Shown here one piece after another: positions 1-10,422 of a stretch of DNA of 35,226 nucleotides (position 1 is its first letter; each line of letters starts with the position of its first letter). The stretch comes from Archangiaceae bacterium. Lineage in GTDB: Bacteria; Myxococcota; Myxococcia; Myxococcales; Myxococcaceae. The stretch covers positions 1 through 35,226 of the forward strand of contig JAACJQ010000340.1 in the NCBI GenBank assembly GCA_016879935.1, written 5' to 3'. A program made the position numbers and the translations under genes. A model generated the notes under the pieces. It was not told the origin of the DNA, made no database searches, and saw only the letters and a list, made by a program, of their open reading frames with translations.

Positions 1-1380
1 GGCCGTTCCGCCACCGGCCGAGCCGCCACCCGTCGCCGTACCACCACCCGCTGAGCCACCACCGGCTCCACCGCTGCAGGAGCCCAGCTCGAAGTAGCCG
101 GGGGCCACCTCGCGCAACCGCGACGAGGCACCGACCAGCCCTAGATCGTCACCCGAACCAACAGCGCAATAGTTGGGAGTTCCGTTGCCACAGGCCGTGG
201 CCCGAAGCGCGCTGATGTGGCTGATGTTGGTGCCGAAGAACTCGCGGCAGACGAACCCACTCCCACCGTCACGAGGGGTTCCCGCGTCGACGGGCGCACC
301 GGCATCGAACGGAGCTCCTGCATCGAACGGCACACCCGCGTCGACCTGCACTCCAGCATCGAACGGAGCTCCCGCATCGACGGGCGAGCCCGCATCGACC
401 ACGACCACACCGCCGTCGGTCGTCGGAGCCAGACCGAAGAACTCGGCGGCATAGCGGCTCGAGCAGATGCCGACGTCGAGAATGAACGCGCCGGCGGTTC
501 CACACCCATGCGAAGGATCGACAGGTGTTCCATGGCTCATGTTGGGAATCGACCAGGACTCGACCCGGGTCTCTCCCCCACTCGTTCGGAACTCTCGCCG
601 CGTCGCCGAAGCGACCATCGTCGTGACGTCAGCCGTCTGATCGATCGCGTTCACGTTCGTCCACTGGTCCACGAGCTCGGTCTGGTTGCCAGGGCGAACG
701 GTGAAGTCGCTCGTGCCGTGCCAAATCGAGACTCGGGGCACGGGAAAGCCCGAGGTGCCAGAGACGCCACGCACGAGATCACCCCACTGCTGCGGCGTGC
801 GGTCAGGCGGAGAGTTCATGCAATTGAACGCATCCAACTGCGTCCCAGCGCACGCGAACGGCAACCCTGCCATCACTGCGCCAGCCTTGAACACGTCGGG
901 GTAGGTCGCGAGCATCACCGACGTCATCGCTCCGCCGGCCGACAGCCCGGTGACGTAGATGCGGTTCGGGTCGACGTTTCGCGTCGGCTTGAGGTTGTTC
1001 ACCATGTTCATGATGGACGTGACCTCGGCACCACTGCGCGACTGCTGGCTCGAGGTGAACCACGAGAAGCACGAGTTGTTCGCCGTCGTCTGCGGGTACA
1101 GCACGATGAAGCCGTACTGATTCGCGAGCTCGTTCCAGCCGGTGTTCGCGTAGGCGGCGGCGCTCTGCGTACAGCCATGCATCGCGACCACCAACGGCGG
1201 GTTCGCCGGCAGCGACGAAGGAACGTGAACGAACATCGACAGGCTGCCGGGGTTCGACCCGAAGCTGGTCACCTGCGTCAGCGCGGCCGAGGTCGAGCTC
1301 ACCGACTCCATCCACGGCTGCTGCGTTTCAGGGCCACACGACAAGAACGCCATCGACACGAGCACTGCTGCACGTTTCAC
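1..1380 (-). CDS. PHB depolymerase-family esterase lipoprotein (3' end beyond window)
   Basis: Predicted secreted carboxylesterase of the PHB depolymerase/feruloyl esterase (LpqC-like) alpha/beta-hydrolase family, which cleaves polyester or aryl-ester bonds outside the cytoplasm. The 460 visible codons start at GTG (1380) and stay open to the window edge. Residues 1-15 form a lipoprotein signal with FLSC at Cys15. The family pattern AMHGCTQSA lies at residues 66-74. The nucleophile is Ser147 in GLSAGG, the acid Asp225 in HGTSDFTV, and the base His283 in SHGTPVD. After about residue 320 comes a run of DAGxPxDAG repeats, then a cysteine-containing segment and a (S)AGGGTA linker that runs off the window. 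The GTG overlaps the stop of the upstream hydrolase by 4 nt (GTGA), so the two are probably translationally coupled. The substrate cannot be read from the sequence; the C-terminal part may hold a binding or anchoring module. Confidence 0.85.
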   Translation of the reverse strand, partial: MKRAAVLVSMAFLSCGPETQQPWMESVSSTSAALTQVTSFGSNPGSLSMFVHVPSSLPANPPLVVAMHGCTQSAAAYANTGWNELANQYGFIVLYPQTTANNSCFSWFTSSQQSRSGAEVTSIMNMVNNLKPTRNVDPNRIYVTGLSAGGAMTSVMLATYPDVFKAGAVMAGLPFACAGTQLDAFNCMNSPPDRTPQQWGDLVRGVSGTSGFPVPRVSIWHGTSDFTVRPGNQTELVDQWTNVNAIDQTADVTTMVASATRREFRTSGGETRVESWSIPNMSHGTPVDPSHGCGTAGAFILDVGICSSRYAAEFFGLAPTTDGGVVVVDAGSPVDAGAPFDAGVQVDAGVPFDAGAPFDAGAPVDAGTPRDGGSGFVCREFFGTNISHISALRATACGNGTPNYCAVGSGDDLGLVGASSRLREVAPGYFELGSCSGGAGGGSAGGGTATGGGSAGGGTA

Positions 1381-2414
1381 GGGGACTCCTTCACTGGCTC
1401 GGCGATGGCAGGGGTTGGCAGGGCCGCGAGAAACGCGAGCGCCGCGGAATTGTAGGGTTCAGAGCAGTCCATCTGAACCGTGTGGCCACAGCCCGGCAGA
1501 CCGATCAGCGTCGAGCCGGCGATCTTGCCTGCGCCGTACTCCATGATCTGGCGCGCGCGGCCACCGTGCAGGAACGGGTTGGGAATCAAGCGATCGTCCT
1601 CACCGAAGATGATCAGCGTCTTCGCCTTCACCTGTTCGAGCGAGTCGCGCACGAAGTCGTTGTGGGTCAAGCCGTCGACCGCTCGAACCTGCGCATAGGC
1701 ATACGCGTCGAACTCGTCGGTCTTCGCGAGCCGAATGCGCTCTTCGACGAGCCATTCGTACTCGGGCTTCCACTGCATGAAGTTGTTGTACCGAATACCG
1801 CCCCACACCCCGTACTCGGGCGTCGACTTCACGAACGTCGAGCTGAACACCTTCTCGAACCACTTCTTCTCTCTCGGAGAGAACTTCTCGAAGCCGGCGG
1901 GCGACGTGAGCACCAACGCCTCGACCTTCTCGGGGAAGCGGATGGCGACGGTGAGCGCGACCTCTCCGCCCATCGAGTGACCGATGACGACGGCGCGCGG
2001 AATCGCGAGCTTCTCGAGCACCTCGACGACGACGTCGGCCTGCGCATCCATCGAATAGGGGAACTGTGCAGGTTTGTCCGACTTGCCAAACCCGAGCTGG
2101 TCGATGGCGATGACCCGAAAGCCCTTCGCGGCGAACGTGTCCAACTGGTAGCGCCAGAACTTCAGGTTGCTGCCGAGGCCGTGCAGGAACAGCACCGTGC
2201 GCGCGCCTTCGGGGTTCAGCTCGACGTAGCGAAGGGTGTGGTGCCCGCCCAGCTTCCACGTCTTCTCGGCGCCCTCGAGCTTCAGCGCGCCTTCCTTCCA
2301 CGGGGAGCCTGCGATTGACGTGTACGCCATGTCGCTGAACTTGAGCGGCGGCGCGGCCTCGTACGAGTGAACACAACCCGACAACACCACGACCAACAGA
2401 AGCGTCGTTCTCAT
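1377..2414 (-). CDS. Alpha/beta-hydrolase lipoprotein
   Basis: Predicted 345-residue esterase-like alpha/beta hydrolase anchored as a lipoprotein. The ATG at 2414 gives a short signal peptide with LSGC at Cys14; a longer in-frame reading exists upstream but would bury this signal inside the neighbouring gene. The fold signature is clear: oxyanion-loop HGLGSN (79-84), nucleophile Ser147 in GHSMGG, acid Asp273 or Asp274 in FGEDDR, and His311 in GCGHTV. This resembles the meta-cleavage-product hydrolase, haloperoxidase and esterase group, but the substrate is unknown. It lies 8 bp after the outer-membrane protein gene and overlaps the downstream esterase by 4 nt. Two ester hydrolases therefore end the same operon, one possibly finishing what the other starts. 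Confidence 0.88.
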   Translation of the reverse strand: MRTTLLLVVVLSGCVHSYEAAPPLKFSDMAYTSIAGSPWKEGALKLEGAEKTWKLGGHHTLRYVELNPEGARTVLFLHGLGSNLKFWRYQLDTFAAKGFRVIAIDQLGFGKSDKPAQFPYSMDAQADVVVEVLEKLAIPRAVVIGHSMGGEVALTVAIRFPEKVEALVLTSPAGFEKFSPREKKWFEKVFSSTFVKSTPEYGVWGGIRYNNFMQWKPEYEWLVEERIRLAKTDEFDAYAYAQVRAVDGLTHNDFVRDSLEQVKAKTLIIFGEDDRLIPNPFLHGGRARQIMEYGAGKIAGSTLIGLPGCGHTVQMDCSEPYNSAALAFLAALPTPAIAEPVKESP

Positions 2415-2422
2415 GGGCGGCC

Positions 2423-4048
2423 TCAGAACGCGTACCAGGTGAAGGTGGAGAACAACGCCCACGGGTTCGCGGTCACGCGATCGCTCCCGTCGTAGAAGCT
2501 TCCGCGGAACATGTACGCGCCGTGCAACCCGACCGTCATCAGGTACCGAATCGTCCACTTCAGCTCGGCGTTCACCTCCACGCCCATGAACCGGCCAGGC
2601 TGCGTGCCGTTCGGCTGAACTGCCGGGTTGGCGTTCGCCGTCGCCGCAGCGGTACCGAGCTTCAGGTTCAGCGTATTGGGAATGAGGTCGTAGGCGCCCG
2701 TGAGGATTCCCGCCGTGACGCCGTAGCCCTGGTTCGAGATGTCGGTGACCGCTCCCGTGTAGTTGTTCACCGTGCTGGTGAAGGGGAACAGAATGAGCGA
2801 CCGGTGGTTGAACCACACCGCGCCGGGCAGGCCGTAGAAGTTGCTGGTGAAGACACCCGTGTACTTGTCATCGGCGGTGTTGCTGTCGCCCGACGAGAAG
2901 AGGCCCTCGGCCGTGATGAGATCGTTGTTGGTGCGGCCCCACTTGTAGAGCACCTCGGCGTTGGCCGCGAAGCCGAGCACCGAGACCTGCTTGTTGAACA
3001 ACGTGTTCTCTCGGGCGCTGGTGAACTGGCCCGCCGACATCATGAACCAGCCCGCGGCGGCGAAGTCGCCCGTGTGAAAGCCCGGGTTGTGTTGAAAGTT
3101 CACGCCGCCGTACGCGACGGTGCCCGTGGGAGACTCGATGGCGATGCGCGGCGCTCCCGTGAAGCCGTACAGCGCGGTCGACGCCGGGCCTGAGAAGACG
3201 AGACCTTCGAACGCGTACGCTGCGCCCTTGGAGTCATCTCGCAGCACCCACGCCGACGCGCCGATGGTGGTGCCAGGCTGAAGCTCGTACGTCGCGTCGG
3301 CGAGGCCCATCCACACGAACTTGAGCCGCGCGTCGTCGAACATCGCCTTGTCGGGCTGGCCCGCGCCGATGGGCAGAAACGCGAGGCGGGTCTTCAGCTT
3401 CTTGATGGGCGACCAGAAGACCGACACGCCCGTGCCATCGGTGCCGAGAAACGCGAGCTTGTAGCCGCCGCGCACGATGTCGAAGACGGGCGTTCGGGTC
3501 GGGTCGTTGACGTTGTCGTAGAACGACTGCGTGCCGAGCACGATCGACAGCTCGCTCGGCTTTCGCGTCGGGTACAGCGAGACGTTCAGGTTCTTCGTCT
3601 GCAGATTGACCATGTCGGCATTGAGACCGCCGCCCTGGTTCTGCAGCACCGTGTTCGCCGCGAGACCGTACATGAAGTCGATCTCGAACTGCGCACGGAA
3701 CGTCGCGAGCTCGTCGGCGAAGAACGGCGTGTATTCGATGACGGGAATCCACCGCTGCTCGATGAAGCCCGTCTCGGTGTTGGGGCCGACGCGCGTGGCG
3801 CTGCCGCCGTAGATGCCGATCGGCCCCAGCGCGACGCCACGAAGGCCAGAGGGGTCGCCCAGCTGGTTCGTCGCCGTGAGACGGGTGAAGAAGTAGTTGA
3901 TGAGCCGGAACTCACCGAGCGGCGCGTCTTTCTCGCGCTCCTTCGTGTTCTTCCAGTCGTCGAGCGGGTCGACAGGCGCGACCGGCCCCTGCGCCCACGC
4001 GCTCGTGGCACAGATCGCCAGCATCGCCAGAAAGGCGTGTCGTCGCAT
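2423..4048 (-). CDS. Outer-membrane beta-barrel protein (porin-like)
   Basis: A 541-residue protein with a cleavable signal peptide (MRRHAFLAMLAICATSAWAQ; predicted cut after AWA). The mature part alternates aromatic and small residues in many short strands and ends in FTWYAF, with the terminal Phe used by outer-membrane barrels for BAM recognition. I do not recognise a named family; an alginate-export-like or substrate-specific porin fold is possible. The ATG at 4048 is preferred over an upstream in-frame start because it begins exactly at the signal peptide. The gene sits between a small lipoprotein and a hydrolase lipoprotein in an operon with an inner-membrane MFS transporter, so a role in moving the operon's substrate across the outer membrane is a reasonable inference. 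Confidence 0.75.
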   Translation of the reverse strand: MRRHAFLAMLAICATSAWAQGPVAPVDPLDDWKNTKEREKDAPLGEFRLINYFFTRLTATNQLGDPSGLRGVALGPIGIYGGSATRVGPNTETGFIEQRWIPVIEYTPFFADELATFRAQFEIDFMYGLAANTVLQNQGGGLNADMVNLQTKNLNVSLYPTRKPSELSIVLGTQSFYDNVNDPTRTPVFDIVRGGYKLAFLGTDGTGVSVFWSPIKKLKTRLAFLPIGAGQPDKAMFDDARLKFVWMGLADATYELQPGTTIGASAWVLRDDSKGAAYAFEGLVFSGPASTALYGFTGAPRIAIESPTGTVAYGGVNFQHNPGFHTGDFAAAGWFMMSAGQFTSARENTLFNKQVSVLGFAANAEVLYKWGRTNNDLITAEGLFSSGDSNTADDKYTGVFTSNFYGLPGAVWFNHRSLILFPFTSTVNNYTGAVTDISNQGYGVTAGILTGAYDLIPNTLNLKLGTAAATANANPAVQPNGTQPGRFMGVEVNAELKWTIRYLMTVGLHGAYMFRGSFYDGSDRVTANPWALFSTFTWYAF

Positions 4049-4116: not shown

Positions 4117-4752
4117 TTACTGGGTGACCGCGTACTTCTGAACCGAGTCGAACGTCAGCGCGAAGGTGTTCACCTTGACGCCCGTCGCGCCCGGGTTGCC
4201 ATCGGCGCAGCGGTGACCGGTCGCCTGGTTCTGGAAGTACAGCTCCATGTTCACCTTCGTGCGGTCGGCGTTGATCGACGCGCGGCCTTCCTGCTTGAAG
4301 CTGCCGTAGTCGACGTTCACGTCGAAGCACTCGGCGTCGCCCTTCACGTTCTCGACGACCACGTTCATCGACGTGAAGCTGAGCGGGTTGCCGAACGCCA
4401 TCGCCGTGTTGCACGAGCCGACCGTGCCGTTGGCCGGCACGCCGCCGTCGCCGCCGGTCCACGTGCCGATGTTGCTGGTCGTCACGAAGTTCTTGTTCAT
4501 CACCTTGATGACGGTCTTGTTGTAACACTGCGTGTTGGTACCGAAATAGACGTTGCGGTTGAAGCCATTGGGCGCGAGCGGAATGTCGGCGCCCTCCATC
4601 GTCAGCGTCTTGCCTTCGAGAAAGTTGAACACCTTGTCGGCGGTGTCGAACTTCGGCGGGCCGGCATCGACGACACCCGAGTCGGTGGTCGACGGCATGG
4701 TTCCACAGGCAAAGGCGAACGAAACGAGCGCAGCGATGGTGATGTTCTTCAT
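4117..4752 (-). CDS. Hypothetical lipoprotein with four conserved-looking cysteines
   Basis: A 211-residue lipoprotein of unknown function. The ATG at 4752 is preceded by a strong GGAGGAG Shine-Dalgarno sequence 8 nt upstream, which decides the start over a longer reading. The signal ends in FAFAC at Cys16. A short Thr/Ser/Asp spacer with VDAG follows, then a soluble domain with four further cysteines (in QCYN, SCNT, ECFD and HRCAD) that could form two disulfides. No family was recognised. It lies 34 bp downstream of the MFS gene and 68 bp upstream of the barrel gene, so it is part of the same operon and probably acts in the periplasm or on the outer membrane, perhaps in substrate binding. 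Confidence 0.75.
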   Translation of the reverse strand: MKNITIAALVSFAFACGTMPSTTDSGVVDAGPPKFDTADKVFNFLEGKTLTMEGADIPLAPNGFNRNVYFGTNTQCYNKTVIKVMNKNFVTTSNIGTWTGGDGGVPANGTVGSCNTAMAFGNPLSFTSMNVVVENVKGDAECFDVNVDYGSFKQEGRASINADRTKVNMELYFQNQATGHRCADGNPGATGVKVNTFALTFDSVQKYAVTQ

Positions 4753-4786
4753 GGGAAAGACTCCTCCAGGTGGTTTGACGACGACT

Positions 4787-6058
4787 TCAGTGAGCGAGAG
4801 CTGCATCTGCGGGGGTTGCGGGGTCCTGAGCGCCCGCGTCTTTCGGGGCGAAGAGGATCATGGCGGCCATGGCGAGCTGACAGACCGCACACACGATGCC
4901 CATGCCGACGGGGAGCGGAACACCTCCGGACTCGGCCAACGCGGCGATGCCCATGGGCACGAACGCCGCGGGCACGGCGCCAACGTGGTACACGATGCCG
5001 ACACAGCGGGCGCGGAAGCGCGCTGGAAACAGTGACGTCAGGAGCAAAGGCGTCACGCCGGAATAGCCCGCGCCAAAGACACCAGCGACGAAGGCTCCGA
5101 CTGCGAGGAATTGCGGGAAGGCCCCGACGTAGAGCGGCGTCACGATGGCCATGAGAATGGCGGGCACCGCGACCGCGAGCGTCACGCCCTTCTTCATCGC
5201 CGCGTAGCCGCACGCGACGGCGCCGGTGAGCATGCCAATGTTGAACAGCGCCACGTGCCACGAGACGCCCGGCATGTCTTGACCGAGGTTCTTGAGCAGC
5301 AGCACCGAGTAGTTGCCCGTCAGCGCGTAGTAGCCGCCAAAGCCGGCCGCCATCGCGATGGAGCCCCACACCAGCCGCTTGAGTACCCCCGGCGTCGAGA
5401 AGACCTCACGCCAGGTGACCTCGGGCTTCTTCGTCGCGCCTTCCTTCTTGCCCGCTTCCCACTCGGGGCTCTCGGGCACGAAGAACCGAATCGGGAACGC
5501 GAGCACCGCGGGAATCGCCGCGATGATGAAGAGCGCGCGCCAGCCGTAGACGGGCACCACGAGGCCTGCCGCGAGGCCCGCGAGCAGGTAGCCGACCGCC
5601 CAGCTGCCCTGAAGAATGCCCGAGGCGATTCCGCGACTGCGTGCGGGCCAGTTCTCCATGGCGAGCGTGGCGCCCGACGTCCACTCCGCGCCCATGCCAA
5701 ACCCAAACATCGTGCGGAGCACCAGCACCCAGGTGAACGACGGCGCAAAGGCAATCAAGCCATCGCACACGGCGAACCAGATGACCGAGATCATCAGCGG
5801 CAACTTGCGGCCCCAGCGGTCGGCCGCCCAGCCGGCGACGACGCCACCGACCAGCCGCATCAACAACGTGAGCGCGATGGAGCCTGCCGTCGACGTGTAC
5901 GAGGTGCCGAACTCCTCGGTGATCTGCTTCATCACCAGCAGGAAGACGGTGAAGTCGAACGCATCCATCACCCAGCCGATCCACGCGGCCGAGAAGCTCG
6001 CCCACTGGCCCTTCGTGGGTTCCTTCCACCACGGCATCGTCGCATCGGTCGTGCTCAT
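4787..6058 (-). CDS. MFS transporter, carboxylate-type (SHS/sialate-like)
   Basis: A 423-residue inner-membrane major facilitator with about 12 hydrophobic segments. Motif A is visible as AGWAADRWGRKLP between TM2 and TM3, and a PESPEW sequence follows TM6 as in sugar and organic-acid porters. The N-terminus (WWKEPTKGQW, then WVMDAFDF in TM1) resembles the sialate:H+/lactate (SHS) and aromatic-acid transporter groups, which import monocarboxylates with protons. The precise substrate is an inference. The ATG at 6058 overlaps the stop of the KAS III-like gene by 4 nt (ATGA), so an upstream in-frame Met in the previous gene was not used. With two ester hydrolases and an outer-membrane barrel downstream, uptake of a released hydroxy- or aromatic acid is a plausible role. 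Confidence 0.85.
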   Translation of the reverse strand: MSTTDATMPWWKEPTKGQWASFSAAWIGWVMDAFDFTVFLLVMKQITEEFGTSYTSTAGSIALTLLMRLVGGVVAGWAADRWGRKLPLMISVIWFAVCDGLIAFAPSFTWVLVLRTMFGFGMGAEWTSGATLAMENWPARSRGIASGILQGSWAVGYLLAGLAAGLVVPVYGWRALFIIAAIPAVLAFPIRFFVPESPEWEAGKKEGATKKPEVTWREVFSTPGVLKRLVWGSIAMAAGFGGYYALTGNYSVLLLKNLGQDMPGVSWHVALFNIGMLTGAVACGYAAMKKGVTLAVAVPAILMAIVTPLYVGAFPQFLAVGAFVAGVFGAGYSGVTPLLLTSLFPARFRARCVGIVYHVGAVPAAFVPMGIAALAESGGVPLPVGMGIVCAVCQLAMAAMILFAPKDAGAQDPATPADAALAH

Positions 6059-7047
6059 GAACGCCCCCCGGCGGTCCAACGGAAGAAGGACGCCGCCATC
6101 GAGACGCCGCCGCCCGACGCGCAGAACGCGACCACGTCGCCTTCGGCCAGCTTCCCGGCGTCGACCGCGTCATGCAGCGTCATGGGAATGCAGCCCGAGC
6201 CCGTGTAGCCCCACTTGTTCATGATCCAGTGGGCCTTCGACATCGGCTGCTCGAGCGCCGCCATCACGCCTTCGATGACGCGAAGGTTGAGCTGCGTGAA
6301 CACGAAGAGCTTCACGTCACCGAGCGGAATGCGCGTCTGATCGCTCACCGAGCGCAACAGGCGCGGCCAGTGTTCGATGTTGTACGAGGCGGGGAACTTG
6401 CGAACGAACTTCACGACGGGCGGTTCGTCACCGGGCCGTGAGGGGTGCGCGGTGCCGCCCCGGTAGATGCCCAGCGCGTCCCAATAGCTGCCGTCTGTAT
6501 AGAGTTGAGAGCCGAGCCAGCCGTGCTGCTCCCCTGCTTCGAGCACCACCGCGCCGGCGCCGTCGGCGAAGAGCGTGTAAGTGGTCTTGTCTTTCCAGTC
6601 GAGGAACCGGCTCATGCCGTACGCGCCGAGCACCAGCACCGTGCGCATGCGCGCGTCGGCCTGAATGAATTTCGTCGCGGTCTCGAGCGCCGTCACGAAG
6701 CCAGCGCAGGCGCAGTTCACGTCGAAGGCGATGGCCCTCTTCGCGCCAAGCTTGTGCTGAACGACGACCGCGGTCGCGGGAGACGGCTGGTCCGGTGTGT
6801 CGGTGGCCAGAATGATGAGGTCGACGTCGTCGGGCGACTTCTTCGCGCGTTCGAGGGCCTGCTTGGCGGCCTGGGTCGCGAGGTCACTCGTCACCTGACC
6901 GTCTTCCATGTGGAAGCGGTGCTCGATACCGGTGTTCTTCACCAGCCAGTCGCTGACGTTCTGACCGAGCAGCTGATCGAAGTACGCGTTGGGCAGCGAC
7001 TTCGTCGGCACGGCGCAGCCGGTGGCCGTGATGCGGGCGTTCCTCAC
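6055..7047 (-). CDS. KAS III (FabH)-like thiolase-fold protein with altered catalytic residues
   Basis: A 330-residue homologue of 3-oxoacyl-ACP synthase III. The nucleophile is retained: Cys114 in NCACAGF aligns with FabH Cys112. The other two residues of the Cys-His-Asn triad are not. The HQANLR motif of FabH is FTQLNLR (250-256), putting Thr251 at the His position, and HGNTSAAS is WGYTGSGC (279-286), putting Tyr281 at the Asn position. The fold motifs DGAGAVVLE (162-170) and the C-terminal ASGGG are intact. This argues against normal decarboxylative condensation and for an acyl-transfer or acyl-hydrolysis role, as in other divergent KAS III enzymes. The GTG start at 7047 overlaps the TetR stop by 4 nt and the stop overlaps the MFS start by 4 nt. 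It is the only cytoplasmic enzyme of the operon and may activate or sense the imported acyl group. Confidence 0.88.
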   Translation of the reverse strand: MRNARITATGCAVPTKSLPNAYFDQLLGQNVSDWLVKNTGIEHRFHMEDGQVTSDLATQAAKQALERAKKSPDDVDLIILATDTPDQPSPATAVVVQHKLGAKRAIAFDVNCACAGFVTALETATKFIQADARMRTVLVLGAYGMSRFLDWKDKTTYTLFADGAGAVVLEAGEQHGWLGSQLYTDGSYWDALGIYRGGTAHPSRPGDEPPVVKFVRKFPASYNIEHWPRLLRSVSDQTRIPLGDVKLFVFTQLNLRVIEGVMAALEQPMSKAHWIMNKWGYTGSGCIPMTLHDAVDAGKLAEGDVVAFCASGGGVSMAASFFRWTAGGRS

Positions 7048-7667
7048 TTCGCACCTCGGCGCGCAGGCGAGAGCAGGCCGTGGGCGACGAACTCGCAGAC
7101 CTCGTCGACGACCCGATCGAGCTCTTCGGGTTTGTCCCAGAGCACGAAGCGCATGCCGAGGAAGTCGGCCACGCCCATGAGCGCGTACGCGATGACTTCA
7201 GGGTCGAAGCGCCCGAGCTCACCCGACGACATCGAGTGCTCGAGCCCGCGCGCGTAGGCCTTCGCGAGCCGGCGGTAGTAATTCAAATACACCGGCTCAT
7301 CGACGAACTCGGCCTGGCGGACGATGCGGTAGAGGTTGCGGTGTTTGCCGGCGAACTCGAAGAAGGCGCGAAAGCCAGCGCGCTCCTTGTCGAGGCGGGT
7401 CGTCTTCTCTTTGACGGCCACCGACAACGTCTTGCGCAGGCGCTCACCGAGCTGCTCGACGAGCTCGACGAAGATGGCGTGCTTGTTCTCGAAGTAGACG
7501 TAGAAGGTGCCGAGCGCGACCTCGGCTCGCTGGGTGATCTCGGCGATGGAGCTCTGCTCGAACCCCTTCTCTCCGAAGACCAGCTCGGCCGCGTCGAGCA
7601 GCTGCTGACGGGTGCGCTTACCGCGACTGGTGAGCTGCTTGACGGGAGAAGTTGAAGCCTGATTCAT
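7044..7667 (-). CDS. TetR/AcrR-family transcriptional regulator
   Basis: A 207-residue TetR-type repressor and first gene of the operon. The N-terminal helix-turn-helix spans roughly residues 17-65 (RQQLLDAAELVFGEKGF, then IAEITQRAEVALGTFYVYFENK), a textbook match including the recognition helix and the FYxYFxxK motif. The C-terminal half is helical and variable, as expected for a ligand pocket, and resembles FadR/YcdC-type fatty-acyl responsive regulators only in a general way. The ATG at 7667 is directly preceded by a palindromic operator candidate, so autorepression together with the six downstream genes is likely. The inducer may be the acid or acyl-CoA derived from the operon's substrate; this is inference. 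Confidence 0.93.
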   Translation of the reverse strand: MNQASTSPVKQLTSRGKRTRQQLLDAAELVFGEKGFEQSSIAEITQRAEVALGTFYVYFENKHAIFVELVEQLGERLRKTLSVAVKEKTTRLDKERAGFRAFFEFAGKHRNLYRIVRQAEFVDEPVYLNYYRRLAKAYARGLEHSMSSGELGRFDPEVIAYALMGVADFLGMRFVLWDKPEELDRVVDEVCEFVAHGLLSPARRGAK

Positions 7668-9027: not shown

Positions 9028-10422
9028 ATGCTCTCTGCCAAAGACCTCCACCGGAAGAAGCCCGCCGAGCAGCGCACGACCGTCGAGAAGTGGGTCGCCT
9101 GGCGTCGCGCTGGCGACCCTCAGGCAGCCGGGTTCTGGAGGGCGGCGACCGCAGTGCTGTCACTCGAGGTGCAGACTGGCGCCGACGTGAAGGCGCTCCT
9201 TCTCGACGAGCTCGTCGCCAGCGCGCGCTTCCTCGGAAGTGATGCGAAGCCGCTCGCCCGCGCGCTCGGCAGTTTCGTTCGTCGCGCACCACTTCAGACC
9301 CTGGGCGCGACGCTGAGGGCCGTGGAGGCGCTCTTTGGAACGTCGGCCCGTGTAACCTCCGTCGGCCTCCTGCGCACGCTCGCCGCCAGGCGCGACCTCG
9401 GGCCCGCCGAGCACGCGGCTGTCATCGACACCGTGGCGGCGATTCTGGGGCCGCCTCGAATCTCGGCTCCGCAGTCGCAGAGTATCAACCTGAGCGCGCT
9501 CCCGAAGCCACGCTTCAATCGTTCAGGAACGCTGCACCCGGACGACTACGCGCGGCTCGCCGCCGAACTCTCCCGGGTGATGGGGCCGCCGAAGCGAAAG
9601 GCTGCGCACGACAAAGACATCTACGAACTCGCGCACGTACTCGTCGAGGAGCGCGAGCACTCCTCGATCCAGGACGACGTCGTGCCGGAAACCGAAGGGC
9701 CGGTCTTCGAGAATCCGCTCGGGCACGACCTGACCGAGAGCGCCTCCGCCCGGCTCGAGCGGCTCGAGCACAAACCCGTGCTCGGGTTGATGAAGGTGGT
9801 CGAGACGCTGCGACGGAAGCGGGTCGACGTCTCGTCACTCGACGCGCGCCTGCCGCCATACGTCGCTCCACCGCCGCCCGAGTCGCTGGCGGCGCTGGCA
9901 AAGAAGGTCGGGGCGAAGGGAGAGGCGTTCGAGCTCGACCTCCCGTCCGGCCGCCTGTCGATGCACACCTCGGTCGACCCCGACATCGTGACGGAGCGAC
10001 GCTTCGCCCAGCCCGGCCGCCTGAACGGGCACCGGCTCGATGACGTCATACTGCTGACCCAGAAGCGCGCGGTGCGGTGGTCGACGCCGCAGTCAGCGAT
10101 CGCCACGGCGCTTTACGCGGGCGACGCAGAGTGGCTGCTCACGGTGTTCGCCGACTTCGGCAGCGAAATCGCACAGGCGCTCGTCGGTGAGCTCTTCGGC
10201 GACGGCGAGCTCATTTCGTCAGAGCGGCTCGGCAGCGCGACGCCCGGCCCCGACGTCCTCGTGGTGACCTCGTCACAGGACTACGCAGCGTGGTCGTACG
10301 GCTCCGATGCCCGCGGCCGCGTCGTCGCCGTGTTGATTCACGCACGCGGACTCTTCAAGGGGTGGAAGCACCGTCCGACTCGCCGAAAGGTGTACCCGGC
10401 CCGACGTCGAGTGCGCAGCTGA
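9028..10422 (+). CDS. Hypothetical protein, unrecognised, 464 aa
   Basis: A soluble protein of 464 residues with no signal peptide and no transmembrane segment. The N-terminal 150 residues are Ala/Leu/Arg-rich and predicted helical. A central segment is acidic (ERLEHKPVLGLMKVVETLRRK), followed by a PPYVAPPPP proline run near residue 277. The C-terminal third looks like a mixed alpha/beta domain (LMHTSVDPD through VLVVTSSQDYAAWSYG). No family was recognised. Coding statistics are good until about 10350, then the last 20 residues become Arg-rich (KHRPTRRKVYPARRR), which may mark a frameshift near the C-terminus. The ATG at 9028 has no obvious Shine-Dalgarno sequence. The neighbours give no functional clue. 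Confidence 0.65.
   Translation: MLSAKDLHRKKPAEQRTTVEKWVAWRRAGDPQAAGFWRAATAVLSLEVQTGADVKALLLDELVASARFLGSDAKPLARALGSFVRRAPLQTLGATLRAVEALFGTSARVTSVGLLRTLAARRDLGPAEHAAVIDTVAAILGPPRISAPQSQSINLSALPKPRFNRSGTLHPDDYARLAAELSRVMGPPKRKAAHDKDIYELAHVLVEEREHSSIQDDVVPETEGPVFENPLGHDLTESASARLERLEHKPVLGLMKVVETLRRKRVDVSSLDARLPPYVAPPPPESLAALAKKVGAKGEAFELDLPSGRLSMHTSVDPDIVTERRFAQPGRLNGHRLDDVILLTQKRAVRWSTPQSAIATALYAGDAEWLLTVFADFGSEIAQALVGELFGDGELISSERLGSATPGPDVLVVTSSQDYAAWSYGSDARGRVVAVLIHARGLFKGWKHRPTRRKVYPARRRVRS

Follow-up and report, generated by a model that had tools for sequence, protein, structure and literature searches.

A conserved KAS III-fold subfamily of Myxococcota and Chloroflexota in which Thr and Tyr replace the catalytic His and Asn of FabH

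The condensing enzyme FabH carries a Cys-His-Asn catalytic set, and related folds use other residues for thioester chemistry. HMG-CoA synthase uses Cys-His-Glu (PMC13412983), and the structural study of PpATase singles out a Cys and a Glu as central to this Claisen-type condensation, both of which are lost in PhlA, a protein of related fold with no direct role in acyl transfer (PMC6392133). CerJ and ChlB3 are KAS III folds turned acyltransferase, with a Cys-His-Asp set (PMC9573744). In the thiolase fold, a Tyr takes over acid-base roles in Sal and Ltp2, which catalyze C-C cleavage of CoA thioesters (PMC12329534). A search of open-licence PMC full texts returned nothing direct on KAS III enzymes without His/Asn, KAS III-like retro-Claisen enzymes or VceA, and no direct description of the residue set reported here was found in open-licence PMC papers; one may exist elsewhere.

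We analyzed a stretch of 35,226 nucleotides (hereafter the window) from an Archangiaceae bacterium (contig JAACJQ010000340.1), in which an ORF with a GTG start at 6055-7047 on the reverse strand encodes a KAS III-like protein of 330 aa. The protein matched PF08545 and PF08541 (Pfam) and exceeded the cut-off of NF006829 (PRK09352, beta-ketoacyl-ACP synthase 3; 263.8 bits, cut-off 249), while scoring below those of TIGR00747 fabH (213.5 bits, cut-off 292.1) and NF005308 (PRK06840; 134.7 bits, cut-off 315). It carries Cys-Thr-Tyr in place of the Cys-His-Asn of FabH. A separate canonical FabH (435 bits), with His and Asn, is encoded elsewhere in the genome, and on the strength of that copy we rejected the window protein as the housekeeping FabH.

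An earlier note on this DNA had proposed that the protein retains the FabH nucleophile as Cys114 but has Thr251 for the catalytic His (FTQLNLR) and Tyr281 for the catalytic Asn (WGYTG). All three assignments were borne out, and the residue numbers are correct: aligned with solved FabHs, FTQLNLR falls on PHQANVR and KWGYTG on KYGNTS, with E. coli K-12 FabH Cys112, His244, Asn274, Gln245 and Phe304 corresponding to Cys114, Thr251, Tyr281, Gln252 and Ser311, respectively, and Arg36 and Arg151 to Asn38 and Lys154. E. coli Trp32, Gln245, Asn247 and Arg249 are retained, and the CoA site is partly kept through Trp34, Asn254 and Arg256, which we take to be the counterparts of FabH CoA-site residues. 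VIA-align 2 superposed an AlphaFold model built from 28 sequences (pLDDT 90.8, pTM 0.91) on E. coli FabH 6x7r with an rmsd of 1.5 A and Z 47.4, covering 317 of 318 residues with 28% identity over 317 residues. This model supersedes one from six sequences that was weak at the Tyr281 loop (pLDDT 74.8), with which Foldseek likewise ranked FabHs at the top. As to the note's question whether another His or Asn fills the site, the alignments placed no other His or Asn of the window protein in the two catalytic columns. The window protein has the KAS III fold and belongs to this sequence family. An alignment artefact behind Thr/Tyr was rejected by the superposition and three separate alignments.

We then pooled and de-duplicated the sequences carrying Thr251 and Tyr281, which gave 72 distinct sequences from Myxococcota and Chloroflexota. 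The subfamily, for which we coin the name CTY, was defined by D83, C114, Y143, N223, W227, T251 and Y281 together, a signature complete in the window protein and the 71 other distinct sequences. Asp83, Cys114, Tyr143, Asn223, Trp227, Thr251, Gln252, Tyr281, Gly283 and Ser284 were invariant (72/72), His273 and Cys286 nearly so (71/72 and 70/72), and the equivalent of E. coli Phe304 was Ser or Thr. All canonical KAS IIIs compared had the Cys/His/Asn set (26/26) and none had Asp at position 83 (0/26), where Ser or Thr mostly occurs. Besides Thr251 and Tyr281, the subfamily-specific polar residues are Asp83, Asn223, His273 and Cys286. The main motif variation was WGYLGS for WGYTGS (Thr282 to Leu) in some Chloroflexota members (L101, L102, L105). 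Key positions in the window are as follows.

6799-6801, reverse strand: Asp83, at the position of the presumed catalytic Glu of HMG-CoA synthase; present in 72/72 CTY sequences and 0/26 canonical enzymes
6706-6708, reverse strand: Cys114, at the nucleophile position (E. coli FabH Cys112), by alignment
6295-6297, reverse strand: Thr251, replacing the catalytic His (E. coli His244), by alignment
6229-6231, reverse strand: His273, subfamily-specific (E. coli Val266; 71/72)
6205-6207, reverse strand: Tyr281, replacing the catalytic Asn (E. coli Asn274), by alignment
6190-6192, reverse strand: Cys286, subfamily-specific, five residues past Tyr281 (E. coli Ser279; 70/72)

In the IQ-TREE phylogeny (67 rows), a 99/98 branch separated the canonical KAS IIIs from the CTY rows and three PRK06840-type proteins. 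A single origin of CTY is favoured, albeit weakly because the branch setting the CTY rows alone apart was 75/74; long branches lead to several canonical paralogues and to the PRK06840 rows. The CTY proteins are a real and conserved KAS III-fold subfamily, distinct from the canonical enzymes, and not a product of decay. A pseudogene or sequencing error was rejected given the 72 concordant sequences and dN/dS values of 0.10-0.15 (NG86; 0.105 and 0.154 against two congeners).

The note had also suggested looking for the Thr/Tyr signature in other myxobacterial operons, where we found it, as well as in Chloroflexota, in a survey that essentially covered these two phyla. Of 195 genomes scanned from the window's phylum, 74 gave a match at E <= 1e-70, 70 of them from the window's own family (96 genomes in the scan). 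Relatives also occurred in Minicystis and in an Anaerolineae bacterium, and the class of the latter had matches in 44/249 genomes (E <= 1e-65), one of which (G366) has the motifs of a canonical KAS III. A plasmid search recovered a relative on a Chloroflexota plasmid (L062, CP069395.1); among the matches listed, those below it were 34-37% identical. This distant CTY gene lies in a catabolic operon of the 180-kb plasmid, which came from a cold seep. Viral contigs were also scanned for FabH, with no hit.

Gene calls from a codon model, with domains from Pfam/NCBIfam, placed the KAS III gene in a same-strand operon whose members overlap or are separated by short gaps.

7044-7667, reverse strand: TetR-type regulator (PF00440), first gene of the operon, with a 4-base overlap with the KAS III gene
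6055-7047, reverse strand: KAS III-like CTY protein (PF08545/PF08541, NF006829)
4787-6058, reverse strand: MFS transporter of the sialate/aromatic acid:H+ symport type (PF07690; TIGR00891/TIGR00895 below cut-offs), sharing 4 bases with the KAS III gene
4117-4806, reverse strand: putative lipoprotein (lipobox-like FACG, read from the sequence), with a start that is probably internal, near 4752; no Pfam or NCBIfam match
2423-4024, reverse strand: 533-aa protein whose start resembles a signal peptide and which may be an outer-membrane protein; no Pfam match
1377-2414, reverse strand: alpha/beta hydrolase (PF00561), probable lipoprotein (lipobox-like LSGC)
1-1365, reverse strand: PHB-depolymerase-type esterase (PF10503, 2.1e-24), cut by the window end, 11 bp from the 1377-2414 gene

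The gene therefore sits among ester and transport genes as the note had described, the operon holding ester hydrolases and transporters. The PHB-depolymerase-type esterase gene probably belongs to the operon too, apparently as its end; it is retained in two other loci of the window's genus and, with the hydrolases, hints at polyester or hydroxyalkanoate substrates. The products of 2423-4024 and 4117-4806 represent two envelope-type families without a Pfam/NCBIfam match that are kept beside the gene in 15/22 Myxococcota loci. Further along the window, a 464-aa ORF (9028-10422, forward strand) had no Pfam or NCBIfam match.

Of the 22 Myxococcota loci, all had the TetR gene, 15 the 530-aa protein, 15 the lipoprotein, 15 the hydrolase, 14 an acyl-CoA ligase and 10 a FabG-like SDR. 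The ligase gene lay directly downstream of the CTY gene in 12/22 Myxococcota and 13/21 Chloroflexota loci (two of these 13 pairs with a gap of >200 bp). Between the phyla, the CTY-adjacent ligases, which we regard as orthologues, were 52-55% identical, compared with 42-43% for the remaining ligases encoded in these loci, and the CTY gene and the ligase consequently look anciently linked. The window operon has no acyl-CoA ligase, the MFS transporter gene following the KAS III gene instead; the ligase is absent from the operon in the window's genus, and no close copy was found in the window's genome (best match 43%). Chloroflexota operons add Liv-type ABC import genes, a MaoC hydratase, an enoyl-CoA hydratase and a CoA-transferase, together with an SCP-2-type thiolase and a DUF35-like protein (weak BbsA match). 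Some CTY operons also encode a second, PRK06840-type KAS III-like protein (L056:756-1793, L101:14664-15716, L113:7263-8321 and L102:19582-19998, the last cut by the locus end so that its C-terminal features alone are visible).

We also located the likely Myxococcus xanthus copy. Of four Myxococcus-like genomes that we searched closely, three have the CTY gene at about 258-285 kb and the following KAS III homologue at about 1.01-1.06 Mb, presumably the expected places of MXAN_0215 and MXAN_0853; the fourth genome is laid out in the opposite direction. Judged from gene numbering, the M. xanthus CTY copy is very probably MXAN_0215. So far, discussion of this copy has been in terms of a second FabH, and automatic annotation labels CTY proteins as fatty-acid-synthesis enzymes. 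MXAN_0215 and the ligase gene MXAN_0216 are up-regulated during predation, and work cited in the same paper, which proposes a complementary starter-unit role, is reported there to have found lipid composition unchanged on MXAN_0215 disruption (PMC9548883). Both the induction and the unchanged lipids fit a non-FabH function; the missing dyad predicts no FabH job for the protein, which would explain why its loss left lipids unchanged.

The explanation we lean towards, at a little under an even chance, is that CTY proteins form a distinct KAS III subfamily of Cys-dependent, non-decarboxylating CoA-thioester enzymes acting in an uptake-and-catabolism pathway. Cys114 would form an acyl-thioester from a CoA-activated acid, loss of the His-Asn dyad would remove the driver of malonyl decarboxylation, and Asp83, Tyr281 and Thr251, perhaps joined by His273 and Cys286, may do the acid-base work. 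The reaction, in whichever direction it runs, would move an acyl group to CoA or another acceptor and make or break a C-C bond (Claisen, retro-Claisen or thiolysis). The pathway may import and activate an extracellular carboxylic acid or ester product by means of the envelope proteins, the lipoprotein hydrolase, the MFS importer, the acyl-CoA ligase and the FabG-like reductase; the gene context suggests catabolism and names no substrate. The missing acyl-CoA ligase in the operons of the window's genus counts against this explanation. A bolder version, which we consider doubtful, is that of an unrecognized KAS III-fold class, in predatory myxobacteria and Chloroflexota, whose dyad is replaced by an HMG-CoA synthase-like acid and Tyr/Thr for CoA-dependent C-C cleavage or formation in catabolism. 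If the Asp/Tyr reading holds, the KAS III scaffold would have a further, new way of handling thioester chemistry, and an acid-uptake pathway induced in predation would become directly testable.

The note had offered a new acyltransferase, a hydrolase or an acyl sensor as possible functions. Each of these keeps some probability, but Asp83 and the neighbouring acyl-CoA ligase favour a non-decarboxylating CoA-thioester enzyme. CerJ and ChlB3 show that a KAS III fold with a remodelled triad can become a pure acyltransferase (PMC9573744). An enzyme of this sort, which would take an acyl group off CoA or ACP and hand it to an O, N or S acceptor while doing no C-C chemistry, would accord with the retained Cys114 and CoA-site residues and with the ester hydrolases in the operon. 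We nevertheless regard it as unlikely, given that in the register assumed for CerJ/ChlB3 the CTY proteins have no His in either dyad column and have Tyr281 and Cys286, rather than His or Asp, at the Asn position and five residues beyond it, that no candidate acceptor or biosynthetic cluster was seen, and that the Chloroflexota neighbours are catabolic.

Quite improbable is a turnover-free acyl-CoA sensor or a protein that, like PhlA in PpATase, plays a structural or channelling part in an assembly of thiolase and DUF35. The thiolase and the DUF35-like protein are near the gene in 6/21 Chloroflexota loci, and PhlA provides a precedent for a related fold without a direct acyl-transfer role (PMC6392133). 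However, in none of the 22 myxobacterial loci did a thiolase/DUF35 cluster occur within eight genes, and, unlike PhlA, CTY proteins retain the Cys and have an acid, both invariant (72/72). The pure sensor among the note's suggestions finds little support because Cys114 and several pocket-region residues are invariant. A thioesterase or hydrolase releasing the acyl-Cys114 to water is a slim prospect, slimmer again than the structural role: ChlB3 hydrolyses SNAC thioesters in vitro (PMC9573744) and the small polar Thr251 and Ser311 stand in place of His and Phe, but such an activity would undo the work of the conserved partner ligase, which makes CoA thioesters, and alpha/beta hydrolases are already present in the operon. 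Least probable of all, and very improbable in itself, is a decarboxylative KAS III whose unusual residues give an extra starter-unit specificity for fatty acid synthesis, as suggested for MXAN_0215 (PMC9548883) and in keeping with the score above the PRK09352 cut-off, since the His and Asn of the canonical enzymes are absent in 72/72 CTY sequences, the disruption was reported in work cited there to leave lipids unaffected, and the identified conserved neighbours are of uptake and CoA-activation types, with the FabG-like SDR the sole one of fatty-acid-synthesis type. The note's expectation of no normal decarboxylative condensation is therefore supported: ordinary FabH activity is unlikely because the dyad is missing in every relative and the gene shares its operon with ester hydrolases and transporters, and the genome has its separate canonical FabH.

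Compared with known systems, the CTY proteins share with FabH/KAS III the fold, length, Cys position, the Gln past the His position and part of the CoA site, and differ in the replacement of His/Asn by Thr/Tyr, of Phe304 by Ser/Thr and of Ser/Thr by Asp83. Aligned with the genome's own HMG-CoA synthase (L176; 373.6 bits, above the cut-off of 360), Asp83 falls on a Glu that we take to be the catalytic Glu of that family, Cys114 on its Cys and Thr251 on its His. The acidic residue and Cys at corresponding positions suggest an analogy with non-decarboxylating Claisen chemistry, whereas the His that is Thr in CTY is a real difference and counts against it, and the window protein is shorter and reaches 37 bits against TIGR01835 (cut-off 360). 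CerJ/ChlB3 share the KAS III fold, the retained Cys and a remodelled dyad, but have Cys-His-Asp rather than Cys-Thr-Tyr in the register assumed from published descriptions. The steroid aldolases Sal and Ltp2 offer a precedent for Tyr replacing thiolase catalytic residues, although, compared through published text, they belong to the SCP-2 thiolase branch with other motifs, YD(H/C) among them, and show no sequence evidence of a direct relationship to CTY; like CerJ/ChlB3, they serve as precedents rather than tests. The PRK06840 proteins (NF005308, '3-oxoacyl-ACP synthase') fall in the same 99/98 group and share the Cys, an acid at position 83, Tyr143 and Trp227 with CTY, but at the Asn position they have His, with an Asp five residues further along, a pattern reminiscent of the Cys-His-Asp of ChlB3.
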